Of a DNA stretch of 64,000 bases, positions 18,732 through 48,732 are shown in pieces (within the stretch, counting starts at the first letter, position 1; the number at the start of each line of letters is the position of its first letter). The stretch comes from Terriglobus roseus (lineage in GTDB: Bacteria > Acidobacteriota > Terriglobia > Terriglobales > Acidobacteriaceae). Both the position numbers and the translations under genes were made by a program. Under the pieces are notes generated by a model. That model was not told where the DNA came from and searched no databases. It saw only the letters and a program-made list of their open reading frames with translations. The DNA lies in the NCBI RefSeq assembly GCF_900105625.1, contig NZ_FNSD01000001.1:2914001-2978000 (forward strand), given 5' to 3'.

Positions 18732-20522
18732 TCACTTCACGATCAGCGTCAGCGGTACCGTGTGTGTCACACCGGCAGCCGTCGCGGAGACGGTAAGGCT
18801 GTAGCTACCGGAGGGCGTCACGGTCGTGCCTGCTCCGGTGCCGCTGCCGTTCCCGGCGATGGGCACCGCGCGGTTGCTGCCGCAGCCCTGCACACCCGCC
18901 AGTACCGCAAGGGATATCGCCGCGAAAGCGGTGTGCCCTGGGACGGTACGCCGCCGCACGTACCAGGGCAGGCATAGCAGTACCGGCAGAATGAAGGCCG
19001 CGGCACGGAGACTCGTTGTTGCCGTGCCGGTCAGCACGGTAACCGTTACGGTACTGATGGCCGACAGGTCGCTGTACTGTGCGATGACGGTGCACTTCGC
19101 GTACGCAGGCGCGCCGCTGCAGGCGTAGGTGACGGGATCCGCGGTGCTGACAGCGGGCCGCAGTAGCAGGGGATAGGCCGCGCTTCCACCATTGCTGATG
19201 GTCTGGATGGTCGCGCCAGCACTTGCCAGGGCGAAGTCGACGCCGGTTCCGCCCAGTTGCGCGACCTGTGTCTGGGCATTGCTGCTGACCGTGACCGTTC
19301 CGGAGCGGGCTCCGCTTGCCGTAGGCAAGAATGCAACGCTCATGGAGCACGATCCGCCCACGGGAACCGTTGCGGTGATCGCGCAGGTGCTGCTGCCGGC
19401 AACGATACCGAAATCGCCCGTAAGCGTGATGCCTGTAAGTGCAATCGGCACTTCGCCATTGTTGGTTAGCGTCAGCCTCTCCCCTGTGCCTGCGACACCA
19501 ACGCCGGTGGCCGCGAAGGCGATGGTCGACGGCAGCAGCGAGACACCGGGTCCAGCAAAGCCCGTGCCGATGAGCGTGATGGTCTGTACGCGCTGCACAT
19601 CTGTGATCTGCAGCGTCCCTGAAAAGGTGCCCACACTCTTCGGAGAAAAAATGACGGCGATGCCGCAGGATCTGTGCGCGGGTACCGTTGGCCCGCAGCC
19701 GTTTACGACGCCGAAGTCACCGGCAACAATCACTGTGGAGACCAGCGTCAGGGAGGCATCGCCGCTATTCGTAAGGGTCACGACCTGCGCCGCGCTCGAC
19801 GTGTCCGCCTGCTGTCTCCCGAAGGTGAGTGACAGTGGCGACAGTGTGTCGGTCGCTGCTGCCGTGCCGGTTCCCGTCAGTGTCGCAGTCTGCGTCCCGG
19901 CAGCGTTCATAACGGTAAGCAAACCCGTGCGAGTGCCGACTGCCGACGGCATGAAGACAATTGAGACGGTGCAGCCCGTCTGTGCCGCCAGCGATGCGCC
20001 GCAGGTATTCGCCCTGAGCACGAAATCTCCTGAAACGCTGATACTTCCAAGCGCGCCCGTTGAGGATCCAGTGTTGGAGATGGTGATGTTCGTGATGGCA
20101 GTTGCCGTACCAACGATTTGCGATCCGAAGTTAACGGCTGCAGGTGTCAGAACAATTTGAAAGGCTGCGACGCCGGTGCCGGTGAGTGTAACGGTGTGAT
20201 TGTTTGAGGCGTCGGCCAGCGATAATGTGCCGGTGCGTATGCCTGAGGCGGCAGGTGTGAACCGCAGCGTGAGTGTGCACCTGGCACCAACACCAAGGCT
20301 CGCGCCGCAGCTGTTCGCAACAATGCTGAAGTCTCCTGTGACAGTGGCCGAGCCCAGCACGATGGAAGCGTTGCCATTGTTGGCAAGCGTGACCGTCGTC
20401 GCTGCTGAAGTCACCCCGACTGCCGTATTCGTAAAGGTTATGGTCGAGGGAGAAAAGGTAACGATGGCAGCGCCCGTTGCCGTCCCGGTCAGTGTGATGG
20501 CGTGCGAGGAGAGTGCGTCCGT
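18732..20522 (-). pseudogene. C-terminal part of giant exported choice-of-anchor D protein, separated from its N-terminal part by a one-base frameshift
   Basis: This frame continues the domain series of the upstream part exactly where that one stops. With one base restored at 20524/20525 the junction reads SGTLT-V-TDALSSHAITLTGT, the normal end of a repeat. Four more choice-of-anchor D (ASH-like) modules follow, each about 105 residues with a conserved Cys pair. Then come an Ig-like segment, a hydrophobic helix, an Arg-rich turn (YVRRR), a second hydrophobic helix ending VQGCG (Cys codon 18882-18884), a Gly/Thr linker and a terminal strand. The first internal ATG is at 20414 but no ribosome-binding site marks it as a real start. 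Without repair this half would not be exported. Confidence 0.85.
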
Positions 20523-23500
20523 CAGGTAAGCGTGCCACTCCGCGCACCACTATCCGTGGGCGTAAAGGTGACGGATAACGCGCAGGTAACGCCTGCGGCC
20601 AGGCTATTGCCACAGGTGTTCGTCACCACGCTGAAGTCGCCGGTGATCGCCGAGGGCGACAACGCAGTGGCGGCTGTACCGGTATTTGTGATGGTGATGG
20701 TCTGCGGGGACGAAGTGCTGCCGACCCCCGTGGGCGCAAACAAAAGCGACGTAGCCGAGACGCTCACAGCCGCCGCACCATTTCCGTTGCCGGTGAGCAG
20801 GACCGTATGCGCCACACCGGCTCTATCCGTGACGGTCACGGCGCCGCTTCGTACCCCGGTTGTTATGGGGCCAAAGACCACCGTGAGTAAACAGGACTGG
20901 TTCGTGTTCAGCGCAACGCCGCAGGTGTTAGCCGTGATGCCGAAGTCGCCGGTCACCTGCTCCGTGCCAAGGTACGTATTGCCGCCAATGTTGGTGACAG
21001 TGATGATTTGCGATGCGGACGTGCCGTAGACGGGTGTCGTCGCGAAGGTCAGTGTCGCGGGCGACGCCGTCAGGCTGGGCGCTGCAGTCGCCGTGCCGGT
21101 CAACGTCACAACGTGTGTACCGTTCTCGTCACTGAAGCTCAGTGTCCCCGCGCGTGGGCCCGTCCCTGCCGGCGAGAACAGCAAGGTGACAACACAGTTG
21201 GAATTGGGCTGCAGGTAGGTGCTGCAGGTGTTGGTGTACACGCTGAAGTCCGAGCCACTGACCACGGGACTCGAGAGCACTGCGAGCGCTGTTCCGGAGT
21301 TTGTGATGGTCACAGAGGCGAGGCTGGTCCGTGTCGAGATCTCACCTACGCCAAACGACAACGTTGCGGGTACGAAGGTGATGACTGCCGTTCCCGTACC
21401 TGTGCCGAACAGCATTGCCGTGTGATTCGCCGTGCTGTCCGTCACGGTCAACGTGCCGCTCCGCGCGGTGTTGCCCGTAGGCTGAAAGTTCACCAGGAGC
21501 CTACATGTCCCGCCTGCCGCGAGTGTCGACGTGCAGGTGCTGCCCGCGATATTGAAGTCTGCCGTGACAGCAGGCGCGCTCAGCGTCGCGTCTCCTGTGC
21601 CGGTGTTCGAGACGGTAACCGCCATCGTCTGCGAGGTGCTGTTGACCGCTGTATCCGCGAAGGTGATGGTGGTGGGCGTCAGAAGAATATTCGGCACGCC
21701 CAGGCCTGTGCCGCTCAGGTCTACTGTGCTGCTGCCGCTACTTACGTTGCTGTCGATCTGCAGCGTACCGGTCGCTGCACCCGCCGCCAGCGGTGAGAAA
21801 GTGACGGCCAGACTGCAGGTAGCGCCAACCGTAAGCTCTGCGTTCGAACAGGTATCAGTCTCCGCGAATCCGGTGCCGGCGAGAATGGTGCCGACCGCCA
21901 GAACGGTGTTGCCCGTATTGGTCAACGTAATGGTCTGCGGCGTGCTCGTGCTGCCCAAATCCTGCGACCCAAAGTTGAGCCATGCTGGAACAAACGTCGC
22001 AACGGGTGCCAGCGTCTGCGCTGAAGACACAAGCCCGATCTGCCAGATGCCACGGCCATAAGTCGCTGCCCGCAACGCGCCCGCGCTGCTGCTGCCCGGT
22101 AGCGTAACGCCCGCAGTTGCCACCAGCGACATCACCGGTGCATTCGGCAGAGCAGTGCCCAGAACGCCCCAGCAACTGCCGGTACCGCTTGCAGGCACAC
22201 AGGTCGTAACGTCCGCCGCAACGTACACGCCGGTATCCATCGCAACGTAAACAGTCAGGGGATTGTTCGGGTCCACGACGACGCTGTTGGCAGGAGAGTT
22301 TGGCAGATTCGCGCTGATGTTCGACCACGTAGCGCCGCCATTCACGGAGCGATAGACATGCGCCACGCCGAAGCCCATGACGGTGGCATAGACGGTGTTG
22401 CCGGTGCCATCGCTGGGATCGACCGCGATCGAGGACACATCGAAGCCCGCTGCATTAAAGCGGTTGTATGGATCGTTGCTGACCGCGTTGTTCGTCAGGT
22501 CGGTCCATGCGGTCGTGGACGTGGCAACGTTGGCGGATGCCGTGCGGTAGAGGTGTCCTGCGAAGCTTGTCCCACCATCCGCACCGCCCGCAAGACCGGC
22601 ATACAGGACGGACGATCCGCTGCCCTGCGCTGCGCTGGTTGTGATGATGGGACCGCCCGCCGCGAGGGAACGGATGTATGCGTCGGACGGGTTACACGCG
22701 GTGCCGGGTGGACCTGCGAGAAAGGGGCTGATCGCGTTTGAGGTCGACCATGCATCCCCTCCAGCCACCGATCCCCGCCAGACGCGGCAGGTGCCGGTCA
22801 ACACGTTGGTGCCCTGCCCAGGATCCAGCAGCGCGGGCGGATCGGTCAGCGATTCATCGTCGCTGACCTGTGTCATGCCGACAGGTGCAGGTCCCGTAAA
22901 GTCAGCCGCAGTGCATGCTGCTCCGTTGTCACAGGCATGCAAGGCCACACCGCCGCCCGACTGCACCAGCCATTTGTTGCCACTGGATTGGTCAATGGCA
23001 ACGCTGCCGCTTTCGCCCGCGCCAAGCTGCGTCCACGGTGTGATTCCGTGAGCCTGCGCATCGGTTGTGCTGGCTGCACTGCCGTTCGCTCCCAGTGCTG
23101 CCAGCAGGATCTTCGCGTCGCTGGGATGTGCGGCTAGATGGACGACCTCGGCCAGCGATCCAAGCGATCCATTCAGGTTGGTAAAGTGCGTCGCATCGTC
23201 GACAGAGCAGACGCCGGCCTGCTGGTTCACGCCATCGGCAGACCGCCATAAACCACCATCGTTGCCAAAGTACATCGTCGGTGCGGCCGTGTTCGACAGG
23301 TTCACGCCCCATGCGATGGCGTGTTGAGCGGGCGCAACACCGGCAGGAGCAGCACAGCCGGTAGAGGTATTCGTCGTGTTGCGCAGGGCGCAGCCACCGG
23401 CCAGCGAGCAGCGGTACAGATCGCCCGCGCCGGCGAATAACAGAGTGTCGGTCGTGCTGAGCGCGGTCGCGGCGGGAACAGCAGCGAGCACAAAGTTGTA

Positions 23501-24853
23501 GTCGCCCTGCGCGATGTTGCCGAAGCCATCTTCCATGGGCGTTGTCGCGATCTGTGTTGCCCATCTGACGGTGGTCGATGCGCACGCTGTGCCGCTCTTC
23601 GCGCATGCATCCTGCCACAGACCGCGGTCCGCGTTCTCCGCATCGACGGTCATCGCAAACAGATCGCCGGAGGTCGGTTGAACTGCCAGCGCGCCACGGA
23701 AGATGGGGCAACTGGTCAGGCCGTAATCGCCCGGCCGTGTGGGGCAGTTCGTTGTGGATAGGCCCGCGCCCGGCTGATTCGCCATGCGGGTCCACGTCTG
23801 CCCGTCGGCCGATTCGTAGTAGCCGTGCGACCGGATCGCTGCGTAGAACGTCTTCCGGATCGGGTTCCAAACAACCGCCGTCGCCGCGTTGCCACGGAAG
23901 CTTGTATAGCTGGTGCTGCGGTTCTGGACGATTGTGCTGCCATCCATGATGGTCGCCAGCGTCCAGGAAGCACCCGCGTTGATGCTGTAGTACAGGCCTC
24001 GCACACCGGCGTTGCTGCCCTTCACAATGGCCGATTCTGCAGAGGAGGAGAGAGCGGCTACGGCCAGGCCGGGCGTGACGCTGCTCCACGCGAACCCTGC
24101 AAAGCCCTCGCCCACAAACGCGTTGGCACTGCCTCCCGTGATCAGTGACCATGTCGCTCCGTTGTCAGCGGATCGCAGGATGCCGCCGCCGTAGTAGCTG
24201 TCGGTCGCGTCGTTCGGATCGCCCGTCCCAGCCAGCACCACGCCGGCTCCGCCCGGCTGCACCGACAAGGCACCAATCGAGAGCGACGGCACGACGGCGC
24301 TGCCAGCGCCCGCGGAGAAGACCGGCAGCGTGTCCGTCAGCGGTTGGAAGGTCGGCTGCGCTCCGGCGGCATTGGCACTCTTCCACACGCCGCCGCCTGA
24401 TGTGCCAACGTAGACGGTGTTATTGGTCGCATCCTTCGGGTCGATGGCAATGCTGGTGACGCGGCCCGTAACCGGGCCGTAAGTTGTTGTCTGCACCTGC
24501 ACAGGTCCAACCGGCGACCATGCGGACGGCGAAGTCAGGGCGTTGGACAAAGCAGCGAGCGCCAGGTGCTGCACACGGGCCTGCGCGAGCGATGCTGCGG
24601 CGGAGGTGTCTTCCGCCTGCGGCTCGCCGCTCGCAACGGCAGCGCGAAGGCGGACCACTGGAGTGTCCGACGCGACGCGGCTTTGGACAAAGGCGCGTGC
24701 ACGACGGACGGCGACGGCAGCTTCGCCAGTGGACTGCGCAGGAGCACACAGGCAAAGCACATTGGCAAGCGCCAGGGCGAGCGCTGTCCAGCGCAGCGAT
24801 GAGGCATGGCGGCGCGAGCCTTGCTGCAGCTTCGATTCGGCTGTGCGGTGCAA
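20522..24853 (-). CDS. giant exported protein, N-terminal part: BNR/sortilin-like propeller plus choice-of-anchor D repeats (frameshifted)
   Basis: 1443 residues from a TTG at 24853 that has AAAGGA six bases upstream. A signal peptide follows a basic start (LALALANVLCLCAPAQS). Residues from about 115 to 930 form a photosystem-/sortilin-type beta-propeller, with repeats such as NTVYVGTSGGGVWKS, GILRSADNGATWS and VYRSVNGGATWSNIS. Five choice-of-anchor D modules then follow (each about 105 residues, pattern ...LxFxxxxVGxxSxxQxxTxTNxG...). The frame ends with TGA at 20522-20524 inside the fifth module. The intact protein would have about 2040 residues. The propeller suggests carbohydrate binding or glycosidase-like function, outside the cell or on its surface; no catalytic residues could be assigned. 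Confidence 0.85.
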   Translation of the reverse strand: MHRTAESKLQQGSRRHASSLRWTALALALANVLCLCAPAQSTGEAAVAVRRARAFVQSRVASDTPVVRLRAAVASGEPQAEDTSAAASLAQARVQHLALAALSNALTSPSAWSPVGPVQVQTTTYGPVTGRVTSIAIDPKDATNNTVYVGTSGGGVWKSANAAGAQPTFQPLTDTLPVFSAGAGSAVVPSLSIGALSVQPGGAGVVLAGTGDPNDATDSYYGGGILRSADNGATWSLITGGSANAFVGEGFAGFAWSSVTPGLAVAALSSSAESAIVKGSNAGVRGLYYSINAGASWTLATIMDGSTIVQNRSTSYTSFRGNAATAVVWNPIRKTFYAAIRSHGYYESADGQTWTRMANQPGAGLSTTNCPTRPGDYGLTSCPIFRGALAVQPTSGDLFAMTVDAENADRGLWQDACAKSGTACASTTVRWATQIATTPMEDGFGNIAQGDYNFVLAAVPAATALSTTDTLLFAGAGDLYRCSLAGGCALRNTTNTSTGCAAPAGVAPAQHAIAWGVNLSNTAAPTMYFGNDGGLWRSADGVNQQAGVCSVDDATHFTNLNGSLGSLAEVVHLAAHPSDAKILLAALGANGSAASTTDAQAHGITPWTQLGAGESGSVAIDQSSGNKWLVQSGGGVALHACDNGAACTAADFTGPAPVGMTQVSDDESLTDPPALLDPGQGTNVLTGTCRVWRGSVAGGDAWSTSNAISPFLAGPPGTACNPSDAYIRSLAAGGPIITTSAAQGSGSSVLYAGLAGGADGGTSFAGHLYRTASANVATSTTAWTDLTNNAVSNDPYNRFNAAGFDVSSIAVDPSDGTGNTVYATVMGFGVAHVYRSVNGGATWSNISANLPNSPANSVVVDPNNPLTVYVAMDTGVYVAADVTTCVPASGTGSCWGVLGTALPNAPVMSLVATAGVTLPGSSSAGALRAATYGRGIWQIGLVSSAQTLAPVATFVPAWLNFGSQDLGSTSTPQTITLTNTGNTVLAVGTILAGTGFAETDTCSNAELTVGATCSLAVTFSPLAAGAATGTLQIDSNVSSGSSTVDLSGTGLGVPNILLTPTTITFADTAVNSTSQTMAVTVSNTGTGDATLSAPAVTADFNIAGSTCTSTLAAGGTCRLLVNFQPTGNTARSGTLTVTDSTANHTAMLFGTGTGTAVITFVPATLSFGVGEISTRTSLASVTITNSGTALAVLSSPVVSGSDFSVYTNTCSTYLQPNSNCVVTLLFSPAGTGPRAGTLSFSDENGTHVVTLTGTATAAPSLTASPATLTFATTPVYGTSASQIITVTNIGGNTYLGTEQVTGDFGITANTCGVALNTNQSCLLTVVFGPITTGVRSGAVTVTDRAGVAHTVLLTGNGNGAAAVSVSATSLLFAPTGVGSTSSPQTITITNTGTAATALSPSAITGDFSVVTNTCGNSLAAGVTCALSVTFTPTDSGARSGTLT

Positions 24854-25086
24854 TCAGGATCCTTTGGCCGGCAATCGGTGCGCGCACGACCGCGGGCGCA
24901 ACCTCCGCACGGTGCATGCAAGGGGCCGCAACAAAGGGAATGCTGTGAGAAAACTCTCAGCGTTCTGCAGAGCCCGGGCGAATCGCCGTGTGCTGCAGAA
25001 TCGTGAAGGAAAGGTGGAACGGCGCTGCTCTAACAGGCAGCTCGTCTACGCGCGCAGAGCGGCTGAGCCTGCGAAAGTGGGCTGGA

Positions 25087-26493
25087 TTAGCAGCGCACAA
25101 TCTTTGGCGAAGCGATATGGCGTGTGGCGTTGCGCGAGTCTACCACCAGCTTTGCGTCGGCGACTATCCGCTCCATCTCATAACTGGAGTGATCGGTGGC
25201 AATCACCACGCAGTCGAACTCCGGCACACGCTCCAGCGGCGTGGACTCCATATTCAGGGCGTACTTCCGGCCGTGGCCGACCGTGGGGAAGAAGGGGTCG
25301 TTGTAGCTGACCTCGCAGCCCATGCTCTGCAACTGTTCGATCAGCACCAGCGCCGGCGACTCGCGCAGGTCATCCACGTCGGCCTTATACGCCACGCCCA
25401 GCACCAGTACCTTGGCGCCCTTCATCGCAATGCCGTGCTCGTTCAGTGCACGTGCTACCTGACGCATCACGAAGATCGGCATCTCTTCGTTGACCTCGCC
25501 AGCTAACTGGATGAAGCGAGTCGTGAAGCCGTACTCCTTGGCCTTCCACGTCAGGTAGAAGGGGTCCACCGGGATGCAGTGCCCGCCAATGCCGGGGCCG
25601 GGATAGAACGCCTGGAAGCCGAACGGCTTGGTCGCAGCCGCGTCGATCACCTCCCAGATGTCCACGCCCATCTTCATGCACAGCTGCTTCATCTCGTTCA
25701 CGAGGGCAATGTTCACGCTGCGGTAGATGTTCTCCAGCAGCTTCGTCATCTCGGCCGTAGCGGGCGAGCTGACGGGCACGGTGCGATGGAAGATGGCGCC
25801 ATAGAGCGCGCAGGCAGCCTCGGTCGCCGTGACATCCATGCCGCCCACAACCTTGGGGATCTCGCGGCGCGGCGTGATCATGTTGCCCGGATCTTCGCGC
25901 TCGGGCGAGAAGGCCACAAGGACGCCGTCGATCTGCTCCTTCGTCTCTTCCGGTGCAATCTGTACCTGCACGTCCCGCTTCGCTCCAGCCTCCATCAGGA
26001 TGCGGACGACGATCTCTTCCGTGGTGCCGGGGTAGGTGGTGCTCTCCAGGACAATCAACTGTCCGGCACGCACATACGGCGCAATCGCATGTACGGTCGC
26101 TTCGACGTAGCTCAGGTCCGGCGCGTGATGGTCCGTCAGCGGTGTTGGCACGCAGATCAGGACCGCGTCCATATCGGCAATTTGCGCGAAGTCCGTCGTG
26201 GCGGTAAAGCCCTTGGACTGTGCTGCAGCAATGTGATCCGGCTCAATCCGCCAGATGTAGCTCTCACCGCGGTTCAGCGTGTCGATCTTGGTGGTATCGA
26301 CGTCAAAGCCCGTGACGCGAAAGCCCTCGCTGGAGAACAGCAACGTCAGCGGCAGGCCCACGTACCCCAGGCCGATAATGCCCACACGAGCCTCACGCCG
26401 CGCAACGCGCTCACGCCATTCTGTCAGGGAGCGGACTGAGGTTCCGGCTTTCAAAATGCTTTCGGTAAGCGTTGCAGGTACGGCATTGGCCAA
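25087..26493 (-). CDS. nucleotide-sugar dehydrogenase, UDP-N-acetylglucosamine 6-dehydrogenase type (WbpA/TviB-like)
   Basis: 468 residues. It oxidises a UDP-hexose at C6 to the uronic acid using two NAD. The Rossmann motif GIIGLGYVGLPL is at about residues 38-49, and the catalytic Cys 306 lies in GIGGHCIPVDPFYL. ESTTYPGTTEE, FSPEREDPG and the C-terminal KADVDDLRESPAL are typical of the UDP-GlcNAc/ManNAc dehydrogenase branch rather than the UDP-glucose branch. This enzyme feeds surface polysaccharide synthesis, but no glycosyltransferase genes are adjacent. A 233-bp gap with no visible gene separates it from the giant protein's start. Confidence 0.92.
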   Translation of the reverse strand: MANAVPATLTESILKAGTSVRSLTEWRERVARREARVGIIGLGYVGLPLTLLFSSEGFRVTGFDVDTTKIDTLNRGESYIWRIEPDHIAAAQSKGFTATTDFAQIADMDAVLICVPTPLTDHHAPDLSYVEATVHAIAPYVRAGQLIVLESTTYPGTTEEIVVRILMEAGAKRDVQVQIAPEETKEQIDGVLVAFSPEREDPGNMITPRREIPKVVGGMDVTATEAACALYGAIFHRTVPVSSPATAEMTKLLENIYRSVNIALVNEMKQLCMKMGVDIWEVIDAAATKPFGFQAFYPGPGIGGHCIPVDPFYLTWKAKEYGFTTRFIQLAGEVNEEMPIFVMRQVARALNEHGIAMKGAKVLVLGVAYKADVDDLRESPALVLIEQLQSMGCEVSYNDPFFPTVGHGRKYALNMESTPLERVPEFDCVVIATDHSSYEMERIVADAKLVVDSRNATRHIASPKIVRC

Positions 26494-26728
26494 GGTCTTG
26501 CCTCTTCTATCTCAGGCAGATACGTCGTGCGGCACGCCTGCCGCGATGGTACGCCCCTGCGAAATGATGGTTCAGGAATTGGACGGCGGGGTTCCTGTGA
26601 AGTTCCAGGGAATAGGTCTGCCGGATTCTGCCATCGGAAGTTTCTCGTCGAAGGATGGACTGATTTTTATCCCGAGAGGGCGGGGATCCGGGGAATCTGA
26701 TAGGCACTGCGAAATCGTCACACTTCGT

Positions 26729-26762
26729 GCGGTACCCCACCCCTGCTTCGCAAGGATGGGGC
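26729..26762. repeat. 34-bp dispersed repeat, copy 1
   Basis: Reads on the minus strand as GCCCCATCCTTGCGAAGCAG followed by a G-rich end GGTGGGGTACCGC. It matches 30 of 34 bases with 31537-31570. It lies in the 286-bp gap upstream of the nucleotide-sugar dehydrogenase and just after the efflux-pump stop codon, so it may act as a transcription stop or be a mobile palindrome. Confidence 0.7.
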
Positions 26763-26779
26763 ATGCTTCTTTGTGTTCC

Positions 26780-28438: not shown

Positions 28439-28556
28439 GTCCTTGTTTCGATTCGTCCGGAAAGTGCCGGGATGCAGTTTTGTTCGACCGGGTCGGAGCC
28501 GGCCCAAAGCGCAGATCCTACCTCGACAACCCGGTCATCCTGGTCGGAACGCCCGC

Positions 28557-28735
28557 TTCCCACAGATTTGTCATCCTGAGCGGAACGGAGCGCAGCGAAG
28601 TGGAGTCGAAGGACCTGCATTTCGTTCGGTGTGCCACAAAGGTGCGAGGTCTGCCGTGCACCTTGTGGGGCCGCAAACGGAATGCAGGTCCTTCGACTTC
28701 GCTGCGCTTCGCTCAGGAGGACAAAATCTGTGGGA
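28557..28735. repeat. REPIN-like palindromic repeat, copy B
   Basis: The 155-bp core 28569-28723 aligns with 16081-16236 at about 90 percent identity by eye and shows the same design: terminal inverted REP units facing each other and a central CCACAAAGGTG-type stem. Here the outer flanks (CCCACAGATTT and AAATCTGTGGG) extend the inverted repeat further. It occupies most of the 348-bp space upstream of the deoxyribonucleotidase gene. Confidence 0.9.
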
Positions 28736-28855
28736 TACGCGCTTCGCTCCGGATCCAGATTCTGAACGCGAGCAGAATCGCCACGTTGCGCTTAGGGAGC
28801 CGGACGGCGCGCCGCCCAGACCAGCCGCGCCTTGAAGTGCGCTACGCTGAGAACC

Positions 28856-29389: not shown

Positions 29390-29483
29390 ACGCCAGGGCA
29401 GGGATGCCCGCATCTGGGTGTTCAACCGGCGTGGACAGCCGGACAAGGGGTGACCGGCCTGCGTACAGGGAGGTCGCGGCGCC

Positions 29484-37469: not shown

Positions 37470-37502
37470 GCGAGGGCGGATCGCAATGCGATACGCCCTC
37501 GC
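37470..37502 (+). terminator. Rho-independent terminator after hslVU
   Basis: Outer 9-bp stem GCGAGGGCG/CGCCCTCGC (37470-37478 and 37494-37502) with an inner ATCGC-AAT-GCGAT stem, followed by ATCTTTTGG. It is 36 bases after the hslU stop. Confidence 0.85.
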
Positions 37503-37922: not shown

Positions 37923-37945
37923 ACTTTTCCCCCGGTCTGGTGAGA

Positions 37946-37969
37946 ACGGTCCTGCTTCGGCGGGACCGT
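37946..37969 (+). terminator. stem-loop with TTCG tetraloop
   Basis: ACGGTCCTGC-TTCG-GCGGGACCGT, a 10-bp stem with one G-T pair, 24 bases after the small gene's stop. The T-run (ATTTTTG) comes only about 14 bases later, so termination is probable rather than certain. Confidence 0.55.
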
Positions 37970-37992
37970 GCCGCGTCTGGGCAATTTTTGCG

Positions 37993-39669: not shown

Positions 39670-39840
39670 GGCTGGGGACCCATCTTTCAGCGCAGTCGGC
39701 GCTTGGAACGCGTTGACCGTCAATGTATGCCGTTGCGTTCAGGAGGCGGCACGCCATTTTGGACTTGACGCTCGGGAGTCTGAAGCACCGACCGGCTGAA
39801 GCCACTCGTCTGCAGTGGAAGAACTGCAGCGAGCAATAAA

Positions 39841-39866
39841 ACGGGAACGGCCGTAGCCGTTCCCGT
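39841..39866 (-). terminator. Rho-independent terminator of the transaldolase gene
   Basis: Perfect 11-bp stem (39841-39851 with 39856-39866) followed on the minus strand by TTTTATTG. It is 24 bases after the transaldolase stop. Confidence 0.85.
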
Positions 39867-39890
39867 TCCTGGTGGCAGCTCGCAGCGCGT

Positions 39891-40883
39891 TTATGCGTGT
39901 GCGGGCTCGGGCATTTCCTTCAGGCGCTTGGCGAGCAGTTCTTCCAGCTCTTCCAATGCCTTGCTGAAACCCTCGATGCCTTCCTTCAGCTTGTCGTGAG
40001 CCATGCGGTCTGCTGCATGCATCTTCTCGAAGGTCGCCTTGTCGATCGTGATCTTCTGGATGTCCATGGATGCGGACTTCGAAGCATCGAGCTTCTTTTC
40101 CAGCGTGCCTTCGGTCGCATCCAGCTCTGCAAGGAGCTTCGGCGCGATCGTCAGCAGGTCCGAACCGGCGAGCTCAATGATCTCGCTCGTGTTGCGGAAG
40201 CTGGCGCCCATCACCTGGGTCTTGTAACCGAACTTCTTGTAGTAGTTGTAGATCGTCGTGACAGACTGCACGCCCGGATCTTCCGCGCCGGCATAATCCT
40301 TGCCCGTGTCCTTCTTGTACCAATCCAGAATGCGGCCGACGAACGGCGAGATCAGGGTCACCTTCGCTTCGGCGCAAGCTACGGCCTGGTGCAGACCGAA
40401 AAGCAGTGTCAGGTTGCAGTGAATGCCTTCCTTCTCGAGCTCCTCAGCGGCCTTAATGCCCTCCCAGGTGGAGGCAATCTTGATCAGAACGCGCTTGCGA
40501 TCAACGCCGGCATCCTCGTACTGCTTGATGATGTCGTGCGCCATTTCGATCGTCTTCTCCTTGTCGAAGGAGAGGCGTGCGTCGACCTCGGTCGAGACGC
40601 GACCAGGAACAATCTCAAGAATCTTGCGGCCAAAGGCGACAGCCAGCGTCTTGAATGCAGCGGCTGCAACAGCCTTATCATCCGAGTTCGCACCGGCGGC
40701 TGACTTCGCCTGCTTCAGAACGTCGTCGACGATGTAGCTGTACTCCGGCATGCCGGCGGCCGCAGTGATCAGCGAAGGGTTGGTCGTAGCATCGGTGGGC
40801 TTGAACTTCTCCATCGACTTCATGTCACCGGTGTCCGCAACTACCGTGGTGTACTGCTTCAACTGCTCCAAGAGCGTCGCCAT
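39891..40883 (-). CDS. tal: transaldolase, TalB type
   Basis: 330 residues. It moves a dihydroxyacetone unit between sugar phosphates in the pentose phosphate pathway. Seen: the opening [42 protein letters not shown], the Schiff-base Lys in [44 protein letters not shown] and [10 protein letters not shown]. Length and motifs fit the large E. coli-type class. GAGGGA precedes the ATG; TAGAAT on the minus strand (40929-40934) is a possible -10. Monocistronic. Confidence 0.96.
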
Positions 40884-41005
40884 CGTGTATCCCTCGCTGT
40901 GCCTTCAATCTTTTGATGCTGCTTTACGATTCTACGCCCGTATGGGAGCCGTTCCGCCGGCGACGATGCGCAGCACGAGCGAGAATTCACCTTCTGCGCA
41001 GCTCG

Positions 41006-42148
41006 TCAGGGCTGCGGAATGGAGGCGTGAATCTCCCGGCTGTGCTCACCCGCCCGGCCATCCGTGCTGACCGCCGCCACGCTGTACCGGTAGTCGGTAC
41101 CAGGCTGCGCGGTGGCGTCGGTATAGCTGAAGCCTCGCACAGGTGACGCGGTCAACTGCGTCGGGGTCCCCGCGGCATCTGCGCGAAAGACCAGGTATCC
41201 ACCGACACCGGGCTCCGTATTAGCCTGCCAGACCAGATCGATGGAGGGAGAGCCAAGCGTGTTCGCAACCGCCTCCAGACCAGTGGGTGGCGCAGGCGGA
41301 GGCGCCAGGGCCGACGCAGCGACCGTGACAGACGCAGATTCGCCGTTGATCGCCAGATCCAAACCGCCGATGTGCGCAGGACGCGACCGGTAGACCGTAT
41401 AGGTCTGGGTAACACCGGCGCGGCCGCCCGTGTCGACAGCGCCCCCCGGATCGTGCGGCCCGGGCTCGACGGCCATCAGCGTCGTCGCTGGTGGCTTGGT
41501 TTCACTAGGCTTAGCGACATCGGGCGGTAGCGTCGTGGGGGTTGCACTATTGCGGAAGGCCACGACCGGCGCATCGCCACGCGTCACGTGGAGCAGGGTT
41601 CGGTCCTGCGCTGTCGCGCCGGGTTGCCAGCGAAGCGCAACGCCAGCCGCGACGGGCGACGCGGTCAGGCCGCGCATCGCGGCCGGCGCCTCTCCCGCGG
41701 CGGTAAGTATCTCGGCATAGGCAGCACCTTTGCCCATGCCGTTCAACACCCGGACGCGGTAGCGTAGTGCGCGATCCGGGCCGGCCATAAGGTCCGTGGG
41801 CAGCGCATCGCGGAAGCTGGTGTGCGTTCCGGCCTCAACCGGGATCTTCGCGATGGGAGAGCAATTGCCGTTCGCGGCGAAGGATTCTGCCCGGCAGATC
41901 TCGGCGGCGAGCTTGCCCGCACCGTGTTTTCCGGTCAGCGAGACGCCGTCCGTTGTGCGTGTCGGGTTGGTCCATGCCAGGTCCACCCCCGGGCCGGAGC
42001 GCTGGGCGCTTAGAGCTCGGACGACAGCCGGAAGGCGCAGTGTCGGTGGTCGAAGCGGCCCCTCGCTCGCGCAGCCTGTCAGCAAAATCGGGACGACCAG
42101 CGGCAGGATGCCGTACCGAGTCAGTCCAGATTTGCCGGAGGCATTCAT
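41006..42148 (-). CDS. lipoprotein with fibronectin type III domains
   Basis: 380 residues from ATG 42148. The signal has a good lipobox, PILLTGC-AS, so the protein should be lipidated. Three Fn3-like beta-sandwich units can be traced: one starting ALSAQRSGPGVDLAWTNP, one at LTASPVAAGVALRWQPG and one at LEAVANTLGSPSIDLVWQAN with the classic end TDYRYSVAAVSTDGRAG. No catalytic motif. Possibly a surface binding protein. Confidence 0.85.
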   Translation of the reverse strand: MNASGKSGLTRYGILPLVVPILLTGCASEGPLRPPTLRLPAVVRALSAQRSGPGVDLAWTNPTRTTDGVSLTGKHGAGKLAAEICRAESFAANGNCSPIAKIPVEAGTHTSFRDALPTDLMAGPDRALRYRVRVLNGMGKGAAYAEILTAAGEAPAAMRGLTASPVAAGVALRWQPGATAQDRTLLHVTRGDAPVVAFRNSATPTTLPPDVAKPSETKPPATTLMAVEPGPHDPGGAVDTGGRAGVTQTYTVYRSRPAHIGGLDLAINGESASVTVAASALAPPPAPPTGLEAVANTLGSPSIDLVWQANTEPGVGGYLVFRADAAGTPTQLTASPVRGFSYTDATAQPGTDYRYSVAAVSTDGRAGEHSREIHASIPQP

Positions 42149-42388
42149 TCCCAAAGCCTAGCATCGCGATCGCCCTGAACGGCTTTCACCGGGTTGTGCG
42201 GGAGCTTGTGCGAGCTATCGGACTATATGACCGGGCTGCAAATCCGTCACATTTTTTTTGCACAGGCCACGAAATCTATTTCATCTGGCTCCAATCCAGC
42301 AGTGTTAGCGAGACGTACATCTTTCGACGGAATAACAACATCTTTTCGGCTTGCCACACTCGCCGACCGTCAGGAGCATACCGACCCC

Positions 42389-43180
42389 ATGGCAATCCAG
42401 ATCGACCCCCAAGAACTGGCCCCGCAACCCATCACGCCGCCGGAAGTAGCAGCGGAAAAGGACGTGCGCGTCGCCACAGAGGCCGCTGAGTCCTTTATCT
42501 CTGAGAAGCGCCTTGGCGACCGCATCAAGCAACTGCGCCTGAAGAAGTCGATGGGCCTAGTCGAGTTGGGCCGCCATACGGGTCTTTCGGCCAGCTTCCT
42601 GTCGCAGCTTGAGACTGGACGCGTCGTGCCGACCCTTCGCAACCTGGCTCGCATCGCGCTAGTCTTCTCCAAAGACCTGAGCTACTTCTTCGAGCCGGAG
42701 CCTAAGACGCTCTTCCGCGTACAGCGAGGCAAGGATCGCATTCGTCTGCCGCAGAGCGGAACGGATGACCCGGCGTACTACTTCGAGTCGCTCGGCTATC
42801 TCATCCCGGATCGTCAGCTTGATCCCTACTTCGCCGAGTTCCTGCCGAATATGACTCCGCGCCGCGCCCATCAGCACCCAGGTTGCGAATTCCTGTATGT
42901 GCTGGAGGGCGAACTGGATATCACGCACGGTGAAGGCAAACACAGGCTTGGAGCGGGCGACGCCGTCTACTTCGACGCGAACACGCCGCACAGCTACGCG
43001 AACGCTTCCAATGAGCCTGCGAAAGCCCTGATCGTGACGCTGCAGGGGAACGCAGCATCGGCAAACAGTGGCAGCGGAGCGTTGCCGACGGGCAACGGGA
43101 AGACGCGGGGCCTCAACAACGGCTCCAGCAGCGTCATGCGCCCACGCACGACCGAGGGAACAACCCAGACGCCTCAGTAA
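42389..43180 (+). CDS. XRE-family regulator with C-terminal cupin
   Basis: 263 residues. After a 40-residue leader comes a helix-turn-helix (GDRIKQLRLKKSMGLVELGR ... SASFLSQLETGRVVPTLRNL). A cupin domain follows with RRAHQHPGCEFLYVLEGELD and GDAVYFDANTPHSYAN, which holds the His/Glu metal-site residues. This architecture controls small-molecule metabolism genes, with the cupin sensing the ligand. The C-terminal 35 residues are a Gly/Asn/Ser-rich tail. AGGAG lies 13 bases before the ATG. It converges on the ygiC-like gene, 9 bp apart; its target is unknown. Confidence 0.88.
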   Translation: MAIQIDPQELAPQPITPPEVAAEKDVRVATEAAESFISEKRLGDRIKQLRLKKSMGLVELGRHTGLSASFLSQLETGRVVPTLRNLARIALVFSKDLSYFFEPEPKTLFRVQRGKDRIRLPQSGTDDPAYYFESLGYLIPDRQLDPYFAEFLPNMTPRRAHQHPGCEFLYVLEGELDITHGEGKHRLGAGDAVYFDANTPHSYANASNEPAKALIVTLQGNAASANSGSGALPTGNGKTRGLNNGSSSVMRPRTTEGTTQTPQ

Positions 43181-43189
43181 AGGCGTCTG

Positions 43190-44350
43190 CTAGCGGAACA
43201 AGTGCGGTACAAAGCTGCTGAGATTCCCGGTGATGGGTGTCCGCGATTCGCGGATACCCATGCCACCGCACTCCTGGTCGATCATCCACAAACCCAGCAC
43301 CGGGTAACGCGCGCTGCCATCCGCAGCAGAGAATGTCGCCAGTGGCGCCGCTTGCTGGCAGACAAACCGACCAGCGCCGTACCGGCCGTCTGTCTTGGTC
43401 GACGCTCCCGGAGCGACGAGCGTAATGTTCGCGCCTTCACGGCTCAGCAAAGGCTTGCGAACATAGCTCCGCATGGCGTGCGGATCGTCGAAGTGAGCCT
43501 CCAACAGCAGGGGATGATTTGGATACAGCTCCCACAGGATGGGAAGAATACCTTTGTTGGCCAGCAACATCTTCCAGATTGGCTCAATCCAGGTGACACG
43601 GTCGTAAGTGGAAAGCGCGTCCGGCCCAAACGACTCTGCCAGCAGACACTCCCACGGGTACAGCTTGAACAGCGTGCGAATGGGCTGATTCTCCAAATCG
43701 ACGAAACGCCCCGCGCCGTTATCCCAGCCGATCTCTTCCATCAGCAATTGCGCTGTGGCCAGGCCCGCCTGTTCGGCGGTGTCGCGCAGGTAAGCGACGG
43801 TCAGCACATCCTCCTCGCTGTCCGCGCTGGCAAAGTGCACCGGCTGCTGCAGGTATGGTTTGATGTCCTTCCACTTGGCGATCAGGCGTTCGTGCAGGCT
43901 GTTGAACTGGTCCGCGCCCGCATGCATCTCGTTCAGCCAGTTCCACTGTGTCACCGCAGCTTCAATCAGGGACGTTGGCGTATCGGCGTTATATTCCAGA
44001 AGCTTCGGCGGACCGCTGCCGTCGTACATCAGGTCGAATCGACCGTAGAGCGCGGGAGGTTCCGCCTGCCAGGTGCGCTCGATCAGCGGGATGGCCCCCT
44101 GCGGAATGGTCAGGTCAGCGTAACGCTTCGTGTCGATGATGTGCTGCGCAGCGGCGAGGCACATCGTCTGTAGCTCATTCGACGCCGCTTCCAGTGTGTC
44201 GATCTCCGCAGCAGTAAAGCTGTAGAAGGCAGACTCATCCCAATAGACGGCGCCCTGCTGCGCAAGGTCTTCCGGTGAATGAAACGTCAGACCATCGACT
44301 TCTACCTTACGCCGCCAGTTCTCTCGCGGCTGTGTTGCGTGTCGTTGCAT
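43190..44350 (-). CDS. glutathionylspermidine synthase-like ATP-grasp protein (YgiC/YjfC family)
   Basis: 386 residues, the length of E. coli YgiC. Family segments: GAVYWDESAFYSFTAAEID, a phosphate-binding FDLMYDGSGPPKLLEYNADT, WNWLNEMH, KLYPWECLLAESFG, ILWELYPNHPLLLEA, YVRKPLLSREGANI and GLWMIDQECGGMGIRES. The synthetase fold joins a peptide to an amine using ATP, but YgiC-type proteins lack the amidase half and do not make glutathionylspermidine, so the substrate is unknown. It overlaps the upstream ygiB-like gene by one base (TAATG). Confidence 0.9.
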   Translation of the reverse strand: MQRHATQPRENWRRKVEVDGLTFHSPEDLAQQGAVYWDESAFYSFTAAEIDTLEAASNELQTMCLAAAQHIIDTKRYADLTIPQGAIPLIERTWQAEPPALYGRFDLMYDGSGPPKLLEYNADTPTSLIEAAVTQWNWLNEMHAGADQFNSLHERLIAKWKDIKPYLQQPVHFASADSEEDVLTVAYLRDTAEQAGLATAQLLMEEIGWDNGAGRFVDLENQPIRTLFKLYPWECLLAESFGPDALSTYDRVTWIEPIWKMLLANKGILPILWELYPNHPLLLEAHFDDPHAMRSYVRKPLLSREGANITLVAPGASTKTDGRYGAGRFVCQQAAPLATFSAADGSARYPVLGLWMIDQECGGMGIRESRTPITGNLSSFVPHLFR

Positions 44351-44733
44351 TACTCGCCGCCCCCGCCAAAGTGTGACCCGAAGCCGCCGCGTGTGATGCC
44401 GCTGAAGAAGCCCCCACGACTACCGCTGCTCGGACTGCCGTAAATGTGGTTCGGCTGCGGCTGATAGCCACCGCCGAAGACACGTGACCCCAGCCCATAA
44501 CCGCCTCCGCCGCCGTAGTAGTAGCGGTACGGAATGATCAGCGGGACAAAGCCGCCATGTCCGTCAGGCCTCTGCTGCACGGCGTTCTGGGGCAGATTCG
44601 CGCAAAGCTTATCGTCGACGACATTGTCATGCTCGTCCACGCAGCGCTGCATCTCCTTCGGCCGGCAGCCGGTCAGGACGCTGACGGCTGCAGCTGCGAG
44701 CAACGGCGTGACGATCGTGCGGACGCGAGCCAT
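44350..44733 (-). CDS. YgiB-like lipoprotein
   Basis: 127 residues. The lipoprotein signal ends SVLTGC-RP. A short Cys-containing segment (MQRCVDEHDNVVDDKLCAN) is followed by a Gly/Tyr-rich, unfolded C-terminus (YRYYYGGGGGYGLGSRVFGG). The CxDxxNxVxxxxC pattern and the position directly before a ygiC homologue match the YgiB/YgiC gene pair found in many proteobacteria. Function unknown. Confidence 0.75.
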   Translation of the reverse strand: MARVRTIVTPLLAAAAVSVLTGCRPKEMQRCVDEHDNVVDDKLCANLPQNAVQQRPDGHGGFVPLIIPYRYYYGGGGGYGLGSRVFGGGYQPQPNHIYGSPSSGSRGGFFSGITRGGFGSHFGGGGE

Positions 44734-45117
44734 GGTGAGAATCAGCCTATCTCACTCGTGCGAGTTCCTGGCATCAATCCGCGACGCGCCAACGTCCCCG
44801 GGAATTCCAGGCTTCGGGGACGAGCAGGCATCCTTCGTCCTCACCTGTCACAGCCGCCTCGCACGCGTGCAGATTTCTACGCACCACTACATAAGGGGTT
44901 ATCTGTCAAGCAGTTAGGGCAGCATCCCAAAACTGGGGACGGCCTAAGAAAAACCTCACAAAACCAAGATTCGAAGAGTGCCGCGTCCGCGCGCAAAGTA
45001 CTGCAGAGCGATCAAGTCTCCCCGATGTCTCGATCGGCCATGCCTGTTTTCTGCCCATTGTCGCCATCGAGCGTGTACCCGGACGCACCCCAAGAACCCA
45101 TGTTTGTTGAGGAACTT
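44734..45117. other. intergenic region upstream of the NHL-repeat protein gene
   Basis: 384 bases between divergent genes, lower in GC around 44885-44990. It should hold promoters for both sides. The segment 44970-45010 has short runs reminiscent of the c-di-GMP-I riboswitch core but does not fold into it. The coding frame that runs through here is not credible as protein before 45118. Confidence 0.55.
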
Positions 45118-48100
45118 ATGCAGACTGTCCTGAATGTCCGTTCTACTGCCCGGCCCCACCCCGATTCCTCCGCTCCTGAAAACCGCTCGGAACAAATCGC
45201 GCGGGTACTTCGAGGTGTCCTGAAGCTCGGAACTTCCCTGGCAGTCTGCCTGTTGCTGTCCCTCACGGCGTATGCCCAAACGGTCGTCAGCACGACCAAC
45301 CCCGCAGCCCTCGGGGAGGCAGTCGACGCGGCGGGCAACGTCTACTACGTCTCCCGTGCCGCTCAGAACATCGTTTTGAAGGCCACACCCACCGGGACGG
45401 GGTACGCCGAGAGCAAATTCTTTACGAGTACCAGCAACGTGACCGGCAACATCGCAATCGACGCGAGTGGGACTCTCTTCGCGATCGAAGGCAACAAGGT
45501 CGTGAGATTTGCGCCTGGTGGCGGCGGCGAAACTTCTATTGCGACGCTTACTCTCCCTTCCACATTCACAACTGGCTTGACGCTAGACGCAGCCGGAAAT
45601 GTCTATGTCACCACCAGCACAAGCGTCATGAAGATATCCAGCGCCGGGACCTCGACGGTTGTCTCCGGCTTGAACTCCCCCAGCAGCGTTGGTGTCGACG
45701 GCAGCGGAAACCTCTACATCGTCGAAGCTGGAAACTCACGCGTCCTGAAAGAAACTCTGACAGGCGGCAGCTTTACACAGAGTGTCCTGATGACAGGACT
45801 CATTGGCCCGCAGGGCCTGGTGGTGGATGCCGTCGGAAATGTCTATGCCACAGACATACATCACATTTACAAGGCCGTGCCCACTGGCGGCGGCTACACC
45901 CTTCGGCTCTTCGGCTACTTTGACGCTGCCATCCCCGACGACCTCGAGCCCCAATGGCTAGCGGTGGCACAGGACGGCAACACACTTTACGTCGAGGGGC
46001 TGACAGTCGGGCAGCCTCCTCTCCTGGCGTTCCCAGCTTCCAGCGTCGATGCGGCAAGATTGCAGTTCGCCGACACCGCTCTGGGTAGCACCACTTCGCA
46101 GACACTGACTTACAAGTTCGCAGCAGCGGCCACACTGGGCAGCTATCGGGTCACGACACTTGGAGCGACGGGGCTGGACTTCACCGACGCGGGCGGCGGA
46201 ACCTGCGCTGCGGCCACAGCCTATGCCGCCGGTGCAAGCTGCACGGTAGCCGTGACATTCACTCCACGGCACGCTGGCACACGTGCCGGTGCCGTCACCC
46301 TGGTCGACAATGCCGGTGCCGTCATTGCAGACGTGCCAGTCTCCGGAACAGGTACCGGACCGCAGATCGCCTTTATCCCGGCCACCGGCACGCAGGTTCG
46401 CGCAGGTTCCATCTCTTACACAGGCATTGCAGTCGATGGGAACGGCGTTGTGTACCTCTCCGACGCGATAAACCAACGCGTACTGAAGGAAACGCCTGGC
46501 ACCGGAGGGACGTACACCGAGACTGTCATCGCCAGTGGTCTACAGGGACCGTCAGGCATTGCGGTCGATGGTGCCGGGAATCTATATGTCACCGACCACC
46601 CGAACCCCATCACCGCATACCGCGTTGCCGTCGCTCTAAAGTTCACGCCGAATGCCTCCAACGGCTACACGCAGACGACCGTTGCCACGGGACTGAACAG
46701 TCCGAAGGGCATCACGGTTGACGGCAGCGGCAATGTGTACATCGGTGACATTCGCGGGGACGGCAACAGCGGTGGCGTGGTCGTTCGGCTGACCCCTCTG
46801 CCCGGTGGCCGTTACTCCCAGGCAAAGATCGCGGAGCCCGACTCCTTCGGAGGGATAGCGGTCGATGGTACAGGAACCGTTTATACCGCGGACATCAATG
46901 GTCTGACGGCCGTTGTGCCAACCTCTTCGGGGGAATTCAAGACAAGCGTCTTCTCCAGCGGCAACGTGTCTCCCAATGGGTCCATCGCGGTAGACGGTGC
47001 TGGTGATGTCTATGTGTCCGGTGCCGGCAGCGGCGCCAATCAACAGATCTCACGGGTCAAGGCCGATGGCAACGGCAACTATGCTCTCTCCGTCGCGGCC
47101 GGTTCGGGCGTCATCACCGTCGATGGTGGCGGAAGTGTGTATGGAATCGGCTCTCTCTATACGCCTGCTGGATCGGTAGGCGGTGTCTACAAGGCAGACC
47201 AGGAAAATGCGCCTAAGCTCACCTTTCCATCTCTCGCCGTCGGCACCACCTACGGCATTCCCACACAGGTCCAGATCGCAAATATCGGCAACAGCCCCTT
47301 GATCTTTTCTGTCCCAGCCAGCGGGACCAATCCGAGCATCTCCGCCAACTTCCTGAACAAGCAACAGGGCTACAGCGATGGCTGCTCGCTGCTCACTCCG
47401 ACATCCAGCACCGTCACACTGGCCCCGGGCGGAGAGTGCAGAGACTTTGTAGACTTTGCCCCGACTGTCTCCGGCGCCATCACAGGCGCGCTCACAACCA
47501 CGGACAACAACCGCAACGTCGCAGGTGCTACCCAGGTCATTGCTCTCAACGGAACGGGTTCGGGCGGTACTGGTACGACCGCGCCGCAGGCCGCACTCAG
47601 TCCTGCAACCGGCAGCTTCGGCACTGTGGTGGTCGGCTCCTCCAGCGCCATCATCACCTTCACGCTCAGCAATGCCGGCAACGCCGCGCTGCCCATCACC
47701 TCGGTTGGCATCAGCGGCACCAATGCAGCATCGTTTGCGCTGGGGACGGTCAGTTGCGGCACCTCTCTGGCGGCGAGTGCCACTTGCACCATTGCTGTGA
47801 AATTCACGCCGACTGCAGCTGGTCCCGCCACGGCAACGCTCTCAGTGAACGACTCCGTCGGGACGCAGAGCGCTGCACTGTCTGGCACCGGCACAACAGT
47901 CGCCACGCCACAAGCAACCCTCACGCCTGCCACTGCCGCGTTCGGCAGCGTCAACGTCGGCAGCGCCAGCGCCCTACAGGTCTTCACCCTGACGAATGGG
48001 GGTACTGCAGCCCTGCCGATCACCTCGATCAGCATCGTCGGTATCAACGCATCGGCATTCACCCTGGGAACGAATACCTGCGGCACCACCCTGGCAACAG

Positions 48101-48732
48101 GTGCGTCCTGCACCATCCAGGTCTCGTTCCGTCCATCCGCAGCCGGAAGTGCATCGGCTTCACTCTCCGTGGTGGATAGTGTCGGCACACAGAGCTCAAC
48201 GCTCACCGGCACCGGCACAAGCGTCGCACCTCCCGTTGCTGACTTCAGCCTGTCCGTCCCGAATCCCTCGCAGACGGTACAGCGCGGCGCCACTGCAACG
48301 TACACCCTTCAGCTTCTCTCCACGACGGCCGGCGCAAACTTTACGAGCGCCGTCACCCTCACGGCCACGGGGCTACCGAACGGTGCCACCGCGAGCTTTA
48401 CGCCGGCGAGCCTTGTTCCGGGAACCACGCAAGCCGCAGCCGCCACCATGACCATTAATGTGCCCACCCAGGTAAGTCAGGCCAGGCAGAACCCCAAACA
48501 GGCAATCGCTGCAGTTGTGTCGTTTGCGTCGCTCCTCTTACTCCTGCCACTCCAGCGCAGGAAAGTAGCATTCCGCCTGCTGACATTGCTCTTCGCCGCG
48601 ATGCTGTGCACCGCGGTGATGAGCGGGTGCGGCGACGGGGTGTCCACCGCCACCTCGACATCGAACATCACCGTGACCGGAACGAGTGGCGCAGTGAGCC
48701 ATTCCACGACTGTCACGCTGAACATCAACTGA
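45118..48732 (+). CDS. giant exported NHL-repeat and choice-of-anchor D protein with terminal membrane module
   Basis: 1204 residues from ATG 45118, chosen for the TGAGGAA ribosome-binding site. A signal peptide follows a 35-residue polar start (LAVCLLLSLTAYAQT). Two blocks of NHL propeller repeats (pattern GxAVDGxGNLYVxD) are separated by a choice-of-anchor D module. Three more such modules, an Ig-like domain (ADFSLSVPNPSQTVQRG), two hydrophobic helices with a QRRK turn between them, MSGCG (Cys1171) and a Ser/Thr-rich strand follow. The domain plan and C-terminus mirror those of the frameshifted protein at 18732-24853. Probably on the cell surface; function unknown. Confidence 0.88.
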   Translation: MQTVLNVRSTARPHPDSSAPENRSEQIARVLRGVLKLGTSLAVCLLLSLTAYAQTVVSTTNPAALGEAVDAAGNVYYVSRAAQNIVLKATPTGTGYAESKFFTSTSNVTGNIAIDASGTLFAIEGNKVVRFAPGGGGETSIATLTLPSTFTTGLTLDAAGNVYVTTSTSVMKISSAGTSTVVSGLNSPSSVGVDGSGNLYIVEAGNSRVLKETLTGGSFTQSVLMTGLIGPQGLVVDAVGNVYATDIHHIYKAVPTGGGYTLRLFGYFDAAIPDDLEPQWLAVAQDGNTLYVEGLTVGQPPLLAFPASSVDAARLQFADTALGSTTSQTLTYKFAAAATLGSYRVTTLGATGLDFTDAGGGTCAAATAYAAGASCTVAVTFTPRHAGTRAGAVTLVDNAGAVIADVPVSGTGTGPQIAFIPATGTQVRAGSISYTGIAVDGNGVVYLSDAINQRVLKETPGTGGTYTETVIASGLQGPSGIAVDGAGNLYVTDHPNPITAYRVAVALKFTPNASNGYTQTTVATGLNSPKGITVDGSGNVYIGDIRGDGNSGGVVVRLTPLPGGRYSQAKIAEPDSFGGIAVDGTGTVYTADINGLTAVVPTSSGEFKTSVFSSGNVSPNGSIAVDGAGDVYVSGAGSGANQQISRVKADGNGNYALSVAAGSGVITVDGGGSVYGIGSLYTPAGSVGGVYKADQENAPKLTFPSLAVGTTYGIPTQVQIANIGNSPLIFSVPASGTNPSISANFLNKQQGYSDGCSLLTPTSSTVTLAPGGECRDFVDFAPTVSGAITGALTTTDNNRNVAGATQVIALNGTGSGGTGTTAPQAALSPATGSFGTVVVGSSSAIITFTLSNAGNAALPITSVGISGTNAASFALGTVSCGTSLAASATCTIAVKFTPTAAGPATATLSVNDSVGTQSAALSGTGTTVATPQATLTPATAAFGSVNVGSASALQVFTLTNGGTAALPITSISIVGINASAFTLGTNTCGTTLATGASCTIQVSFRPSAAGSASASLSVVDSVGTQSSTLTGTGTSVAPPVADFSLSVPNPSQTVQRGATATYTLQLLSTTAGANFTSAVTLTATGLPNGATASFTPASLVPGTTQAAAATMTINVPTQVSQARQNPKQAIAAVVSFASLLLLLPLQRRKVAFRLLTLLFAAMLCTAVMSGCGDGVSTATSTSNITVTGTSGAVSHSTTVTLNIN

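Follow-up and report, generated by a model that had tools for sequence, protein, structure and literature searches.

A C-terminal module with an invariant lipobox-like cysteine and a predicted split immunoglobulin-like domain in large exported proteins of Terriglobus roseus

Two very large exported proteins are encoded in a 64,000-nucleotide stretch of the Terriglobus roseus genome (positions 2,914,001 to 2,978,000 of contig NZ_FNSD01000001.1; hereafter the window), and both end in the same C-terminal module, in which an immunoglobulin (Ig)-like part is followed by a pair of hydrophobic helices and an invariant cysteine (Cys). Protein 1, on the plus strand, has a propeller (NHL/SBBP repeats in a domain library search) and choice-of-anchor D repeats (NF012200) ahead of the module. 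The start of its open reading frame (ORF) at 44557 is probably too early, because a likely signal peptide (judged by eye, ending at ORF residue 241) follows a Met at 45100; the true start is probably near that Met. Protein 2, on the minus strand, is one long gene in two frames (18732–24853), with a shift by one base near 20520 that could be either an assembly error or real. Its N-terminal piece carries a signal peptide (by eye), sortilin/BNR-type matches that are weak and under the curated cut-offs, and choice-of-anchor D repeats (NF012200). The order of elements is the same in both tails: an Ig-like part, a helix, a basic turn (QRRK in one, YVRRR in the other), a second helix, SGCG or QGCG, a linker and a strand. 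This layout of helix, basic turn, helix and Cys had been described in a sequence-only reading of the window, which also placed both Cys codons exactly. Its estimate that the Cys lies 35–50 residues from the C-terminus fits protein 2 (49 residues after the Cys) and is slightly too high for protein 1 (33 residues). The features are as follows, in window coordinates; AlphaFold residue numbers are those of each module, and confidence is given as block means of the predicted local distance difference test (pLDDT).

44557–48732, plus strand: protein 1 ORF, with propeller, choice-of-anchor D repeats and module
48226–48459, plus strand: module 1, Ig-like strands 5' of the hairpin (AlphaFold residues 1–78, pLDDT block means 90–98)
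48493–48540, plus strand: module 1, first hydrophobic helix (AlphaFold helix 90–105)
48541–48564, plus strand: module 1, basic turn, QRRK (sequence and AlphaFold)
48565–48618, plus strand: module 1, second hydrophobic helix, signal-peptide-like (AlphaFold helix 114–131)
48628–48630, plus strand: module 1, invariant lipobox-like Cys, MSGC (codon read, alignment)
48655–48726, plus strand: module 1, predicted last two Ig strands, past the Cys (AlphaFold strands 144–154 and 157–167, pLDDT block means 94–98)
20522–24853, minus strand: protein 2 N-terminal piece, with signal peptide, weak sortilin/BNR-type region and choice-of-anchor D repeats
18732–20414, minus strand: protein 2 C-terminal piece, in a different frame from 20522–24853
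19029–19259, minus strand: module 2, Ig-like strands preceding the hairpin (AlphaFold residues 1–77, pLDDT block means 91–97, first block 74)
18951–19001, minus strand: module 2, first hydrophobic helix (AlphaFold helix 87–103)
18933–18950, minus strand: module 2, turn as modelled (YVRRR spans the junction of first helix and turn)
18885–18932, minus strand: module 2, second hydrophobic helix (AlphaFold helix 110–125)
18882–18884, minus strand: module 2, invariant lipobox-like Cys, VQGC (codon read, alignments)
18738–18809, minus strand: module 2, predicted last two Ig strands, past the Cys (AlphaFold strands 151–161 and 164–174, pLDDT block means 96–97)

The window tails share one module, beyond chance. 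A profile of 85 other modules (both window rows were taken out of the finished alignment, not before aligning) scores the two tails at 128.3 bits (protein 1) and 95.0 bits (protein 2) over the full length, while the best of 1000 shuffles of the same tails reaches 7.1 bits. No Pfam family matches more than four of the ten members of alignment A1, the best E value being 2.7e-4 for a single member. The tag itself is already named in NCBIfam (release 20.0), as NF058595 invert_tail, a 'lipo-invert putative C-terminal anchoring domain', and therefore its discovery is not new. This model covers the same hairpin and tail, and 86 of 87 modules match it at E ≤ 0.001. Protein 1 passes its cut-off of 37 bits with 49.1; protein 2 (30.9 bits, E 2.8e-7) stays below, though by sequence comparison its tail appears plainly homologous to the module. 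On module 1 the match covers residues 73–168, starting within the strand that leads into the hairpin, so that the model leaves out most of the split Ig domain's first half. Both this existing model and the splitting of the Ig domain by the hairpin were overlooked in the sequence-only reading; the latter, as a prediction, and the conservation of the Cys in a search blind to it are what the present analysis adds.

The host genome (4.8 Mb, two contigs) holds 14 full-length copies of the module, the two in the window included. Their cargo is unrelated, as expected for a shared C-terminal module on different proteins, which is how the two window tails had originally been read: FG-GAP repeats, NHL propellers, Big_3_5 Ig repeats, a lamin-tail domain, pro-kumamolisin activation domains of the S53 peptidase type (two proteins) and Exo_endo_phos domains (two proteins), with one of the 14 lacking any Pfam match. 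By eye, an ordinary N-terminal signal peptide is present in the 12 other host proteins as in both window proteins; that of L169 also fits a loose lipobox expression. The suggestion in the sequence-only reading that the tag may be specific to acidobacteria was examined over genomes of the phylum, 14 control genomes and a plasmid collection; the module is strongest in what looks like the Acidobacteriaceae. A sample of 149 genomes of the phylum includes 15 from the host's family, each of which has full-length copies; other families have the Ig part only, among the matches listed. In a second sample of 26 family genomes (21 new relative to the earlier samples) 24 have full-length matches. The family genome G297 has Ig-part matches only, again among the matches listed. 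The NF058595 cut-off is passed by 36 of 297 phylum genomes, with at most 14 candidates scored per genome; by E value, those passing are all 31 family genomes, genomes G216 and G272 of another family (f41), and three others. In the class to which G216 belongs the number is 5 of 119, each with one copy and each from genus g60 of f41. Of two f41 proteins, L180 has a signal peptide and L181 none in its frame (by eye). The module is the last element in all 14 proteins inspected for this (12 from the host, with L180 and L181).

The conservation of the Cys is complete. In a first set of 94 modules the second helix is followed by [GAS]C in every one (G 77, A 11, S 6). Because these came from a profile containing the Cys, a further search was run with a profile in which the Cys and its two neighbours were hidden, and the family modules found in this way have [GAS]C in 65 of 65 cases (G 27, A 24, S 14), as do the five modules of family f41 (5/5), which were found with NF058595 and hence not blind to the Cys. 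With the duplicates L219 and L225 removed, and with the partial match L237 left out of the second set, the total is 162 of 162 distinct modules, and for 63 of these the search was blind to the Cys. In an 87-row alignment (A2, which omits 7 of the 94 modules and two loci repeating the window modules) the Cys is the sole invariant column, every other one staying below 90%; it is again the sole invariant column when a subset of only 60 rows of the same modules is aligned afresh (A4). Other Cys residues are rare within the returning helix (47 of 1968 positions). The distance from the Cys to the C-terminus ranges from 30 to 64 residues, and the modules run to the end of their proteins, with the stop 0–19 residues past the match in 94/94 of the first set and, for the C-terminal position typical of NF058595, within 25 residues of the match in 70/70 of the second.

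The setting of the Cys resembles a lipobox. A looser lipobox pattern, in the style of PROSITE, fits 130 of the 162 modules. For a baseline, internal hydrophobic segments preceded by basic residues were collected from other frames of at least 200 codons (real genes or not) in about 420 kb of the host; of these 33 segments just one, belonging to an ordinary N-terminal lipoprotein, has [GAS]C after it. In the same stretches a regular expression picks out 15 candidate N-terminal lipoproteins, not all of them real, with sites that include LTGC, VTGC and TSGC. The sequence-only reading had named a Cys that is not conserved as grounds for refuting its idea of an internal type II signal; with the Cys retained in 162/162 modules, that refutation fails.

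The 'terminal strand' of that reading is better described as two strands, predicted to complete the preceding Ig-like domain. Profiles of the first and second halves of the Ig domain were searched separately over 196 loci. There are 154 first-half matches. In 23 of them the second half follows at a gap of −5 to +5 residues (intact domains), in 102 at 46–110 residues and in three further away; 26 are without a second half. The gap is bimodal, with none between 5 and 40, and therefore the hairpin, Cys and tether appear to be an insert in a single Ig domain. Intact acidobacterial Ig-like repeats have the same strands in the same order, but no hairpin between them. A host lipoprotein with intact Ig domains illustrates this, as it matches model positions 2–67 (E 5e-5) and then, almost directly, 138–167 (weakly, E 0.17). 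The AlphaFold models agree with the split, with confident strands on both sides of a hairpin of lower pLDDT (56–84). Foldseek matches to these models are mostly Ig-like, the top ones being Ig-like domains of a sialidase (2ber) and of the S-layer protein SbsC; several targets of only 86–112 residues align over 162–177 columns, so that a long gap for the hairpin is needed. Among last-Ig parts near frame ends, the Cys is present in 115 of 115 with a hydrophobic segment, nine have no such segment, and no halfway form is seen; this survey is biased, since carrying the module was the reason for retrieving most of the loci.

The turn between the helices is strongly basic. Its mean net charge is +4.3 in the first set and +4.4 in the second, as against +1.3 and +0.7 preceding the first helix and +0.1 and +0.3 past the Cys, and it is more positive than both flanks in 88/94 and 68/70 modules. 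Following the positive-inside rule, this charge would place the turn in the cytoplasm and leave the Ig part on the outside together with the Cys and the last strands, which would be the orientation that Lgt and LspA need.

An enzyme dedicated to the tag, either a protease or a transferase, had also been envisaged, and this part of the sequence-only reading found no support. A dedicated LspA was rejected, as LspA is single-copy in 20/20 family genomes. Lgt is found in 39 of 41 genomes and second copies are common, but a dedicated Lgt was likewise rejected, since G023, G210 and G300 have one Lgt yet 6 to 14 module matches each. An exosortase is encoded by 18 of the 31 family genomes, among them the host's; it was rejected as the cognate enzyme because it is missing from the tail-rich genomes G007 and G023; sortase (PF04203) was not searched for. 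Proteases of the CPBP/myxosortase type are uninformative because they are present in every genome scanned (2–10 copies in 31/31), with three in G317, a genome without a module match. The host has two Lgt genes: a second, more diverged Lgt-like gene is at G000:C1:1844057-1844761, and some 7 kb separate the other lgt (43174) from lspA (50248).

The explanation that we favour, and to which we give a chance only just short of even, is that the ordinary lipoprotein enzymes act at the internal site. The module would be a single Ig-like domain into which a membrane hairpin is inserted, directly ahead of the final two strands, and the returning helix of this hairpin would serve as a type II signal peptide in normal orientation, with the basic residues inside and the Cys at the outer face. 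Once exported, the protein would insert the hairpin in the membrane, the housekeeping Lgt would put a diacylglycerol on the Cys, and the housekeeping LspA would cleave directly before it. The last two strands would then become a small lipopeptide that is still paired inside the Ig domain, and the nicked Ig fold would hold the giant protein to its lipid anchor, leaving the N-terminal cargo free. Such a cut in the Ig domain would account for the folded strand pair after the Cys, which an internal signal alone leaves unexplained. In its basic n-region, hydrophobic helix, [GAS]C and flexible tether the module resembles the type II signal peptide of the Lgt/LspA pathway, as set out in PMC8689077. 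It differs in that its signal is 30–64 residues from the C-terminus, with the protein attached ahead of it, rather than at the N-terminus. The interpretation given in the sequence-only reading is thus partly supported, while the observation on which it was built stands.

Several points weigh against cleavage by the housekeeping enzymes. Lipidation and cleavage at the Cys are deduced from sequence only, and the non-covalent retention and the final membrane are likewise things that we infer. LspA usually takes off a signal peptide that is short and free, and in the module the whole protein is attached to the signal that it would cut. If cut, the large fragment would keep both helices and, short of a second cut, remain in the inner membrane. 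The first helix is less hydrophobic than the second (Kyte-Doolittle means of 1.95 vs 2.45 and 1.92 vs 2.37), and in 12 of 115 hairpins a single segment is over the hydrophobicity threshold, so the first helix may not always cross the membrane. Whether the nicked domain would stay assembled is beyond what AlphaFold can tell, and the structural matches from Foldseek are weak (best E 2.4e-4 and 8.4e-4, root-mean-square deviation often 4–12). Q or E is found at position −3 in 8/70 second-set modules, and the strict lipobox [LV][ASTVI][GAS]C, as printed in PMC8689077, is found in just 55 of 162 modules.

Some of these difficulties would disappear if Lgt modified the Cys and LspA did not cleave, the hairpin and lipid together holding a covalently intact Ig domain. 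This would explain the invariant Cys, the lipobox-like site and the continuous Ig fold, and no large attached protein would be needed in place of a free signal peptide. We nevertheless consider it unlikely, if worth serious attention: the lipid would add little, since the hairpin already anchors, none of the 20 family genomes checked lacks LspA, and in ordinary lipoproteins this enzyme acts after Lgt (PMC8689077). The scarcity of the strict lipobox would be expected of a plain two-helix anchor, a hairpin in an Ig loop that would hold the protein by its topology alone, with the Cys kept for, e.g., an intermolecular disulfide or helix packing. That is rather improbable given that a small residue precedes the Cys at the outer end of the returning helix in all 162 modules, that other Cys residues in this helix are rare and that no other column is invariant.

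An outer membrane or surface location would follow if a second protease cut before the first helix, so that the hairpin is discarded and the protein rides on the lipopeptide. The second helix is like a signal peptide, and the first helix with the basic turn looks like the terminal part of an exosortase-type tag. Asp after the Cys is the inner-membrane retention signal in E. coli, and it directly follows the Cys in just 1/162 modules. Against this, there is no conserved motif ahead of the first helix (no nearly invariant column), the exosortase is missing from the two tail-rich genomes named above and the CPBP proteases do not discriminate, and we regard the double cut as having a slim chance. 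A chance event or gene-fusion artefact, in which a lipoprotein gene was joined to an upstream Ig protein by loss of a stop, would account for the resemblance of the second half to a short lipoprotein. It is already refuted by the many copies, and its likelihood is close to nil: the same architecture is found on unrelated cargo in 14 host proteins and at full length in 24/26 family genomes, and there are Ig strands on both sides.

A cut or incomplete beta-sandwich held by a strand from another piece is familiar from the GAIN domain of adhesion G-protein-coupled receptors and from donor-strand pilins. These have other folds, enzymes and organisms, and the likeness to the module would be an analogy of mechanism only. 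Literature searches by the name or accession of the tag found no paper, and those on acidobacterial C-terminal tags and choice-of-anchor domains gave nothing on the module, as judged by titles and the starts of abstracts. The nearest studied system known to the analysis is MYXO-CTERM with its myxosortase, as described in PMC11980579. It is also a C-terminal anchoring tag with an invariant Cys, a proposed lipidation and many cargos per genome; in contrast to the module, its Cys precedes a single helix, basic residues end the protein and no lipobox is defined there. The module has instead the order helix, Arg, helix, Cys (the lipoprotein orientation) and strands, so it does not share the MYXO-CTERM layout.

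Few routes are known for the C-terminal anchoring of proteins in Gram-negative bacteria. If the housekeeping Lgt and LspA do act on the module, then ordinary lipoprotein enzymes would anchor proteins by the C-terminus via a signal inside the protein, and there would be a testable answer to how such a protein remains attached once cut: the cut would lie inside an Ig domain able to hold together. For many soil acidobacterial proteins of the propeller, nuclease-like and S53-peptidase-like types a likely location would also follow. More tentatively, and with a chance that we place clearly below even, the lipoprotein pathway may cut the Ig domain so that its last two strands form a lipopeptide clamp by strand complementation. 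Acidobacteriaceae would then tether large enzymes and adhesins C-terminally, a dozen or more in each genome, with no dedicated sortase, and the clamp could release under force.

The remaining observations concern the distribution of the module. None of the 14 control genomes passes the NF058595 cut-off, and the plasmid collection has no match to the tail of protein 1. The family genome G317 has no module match at E ≤ 1e-6 and could provide a natural loss for comparison. In the f41 genome G216, the tail-bearing protein L180 also has NF058597 'choice-of-anchor Z' repeats. Protein 1 gave no relative when scanned against named genomes. With a host protein of the S53 type, the relatives with a readable end lack the tail in 4/4 Bryobacterales or Bryobacteraceae, in one metagenome-assembled genome (MAG) of Terriglobia and in one Ktedonobacteraceae MAG, and the tail with its Cys is present in two Terriglobus MAGs and one Acidobacteriaceae MAG. 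The closest named relatives of one host protein are from Terriglobus MAGs, with 58 and 54% identity over the best segment.

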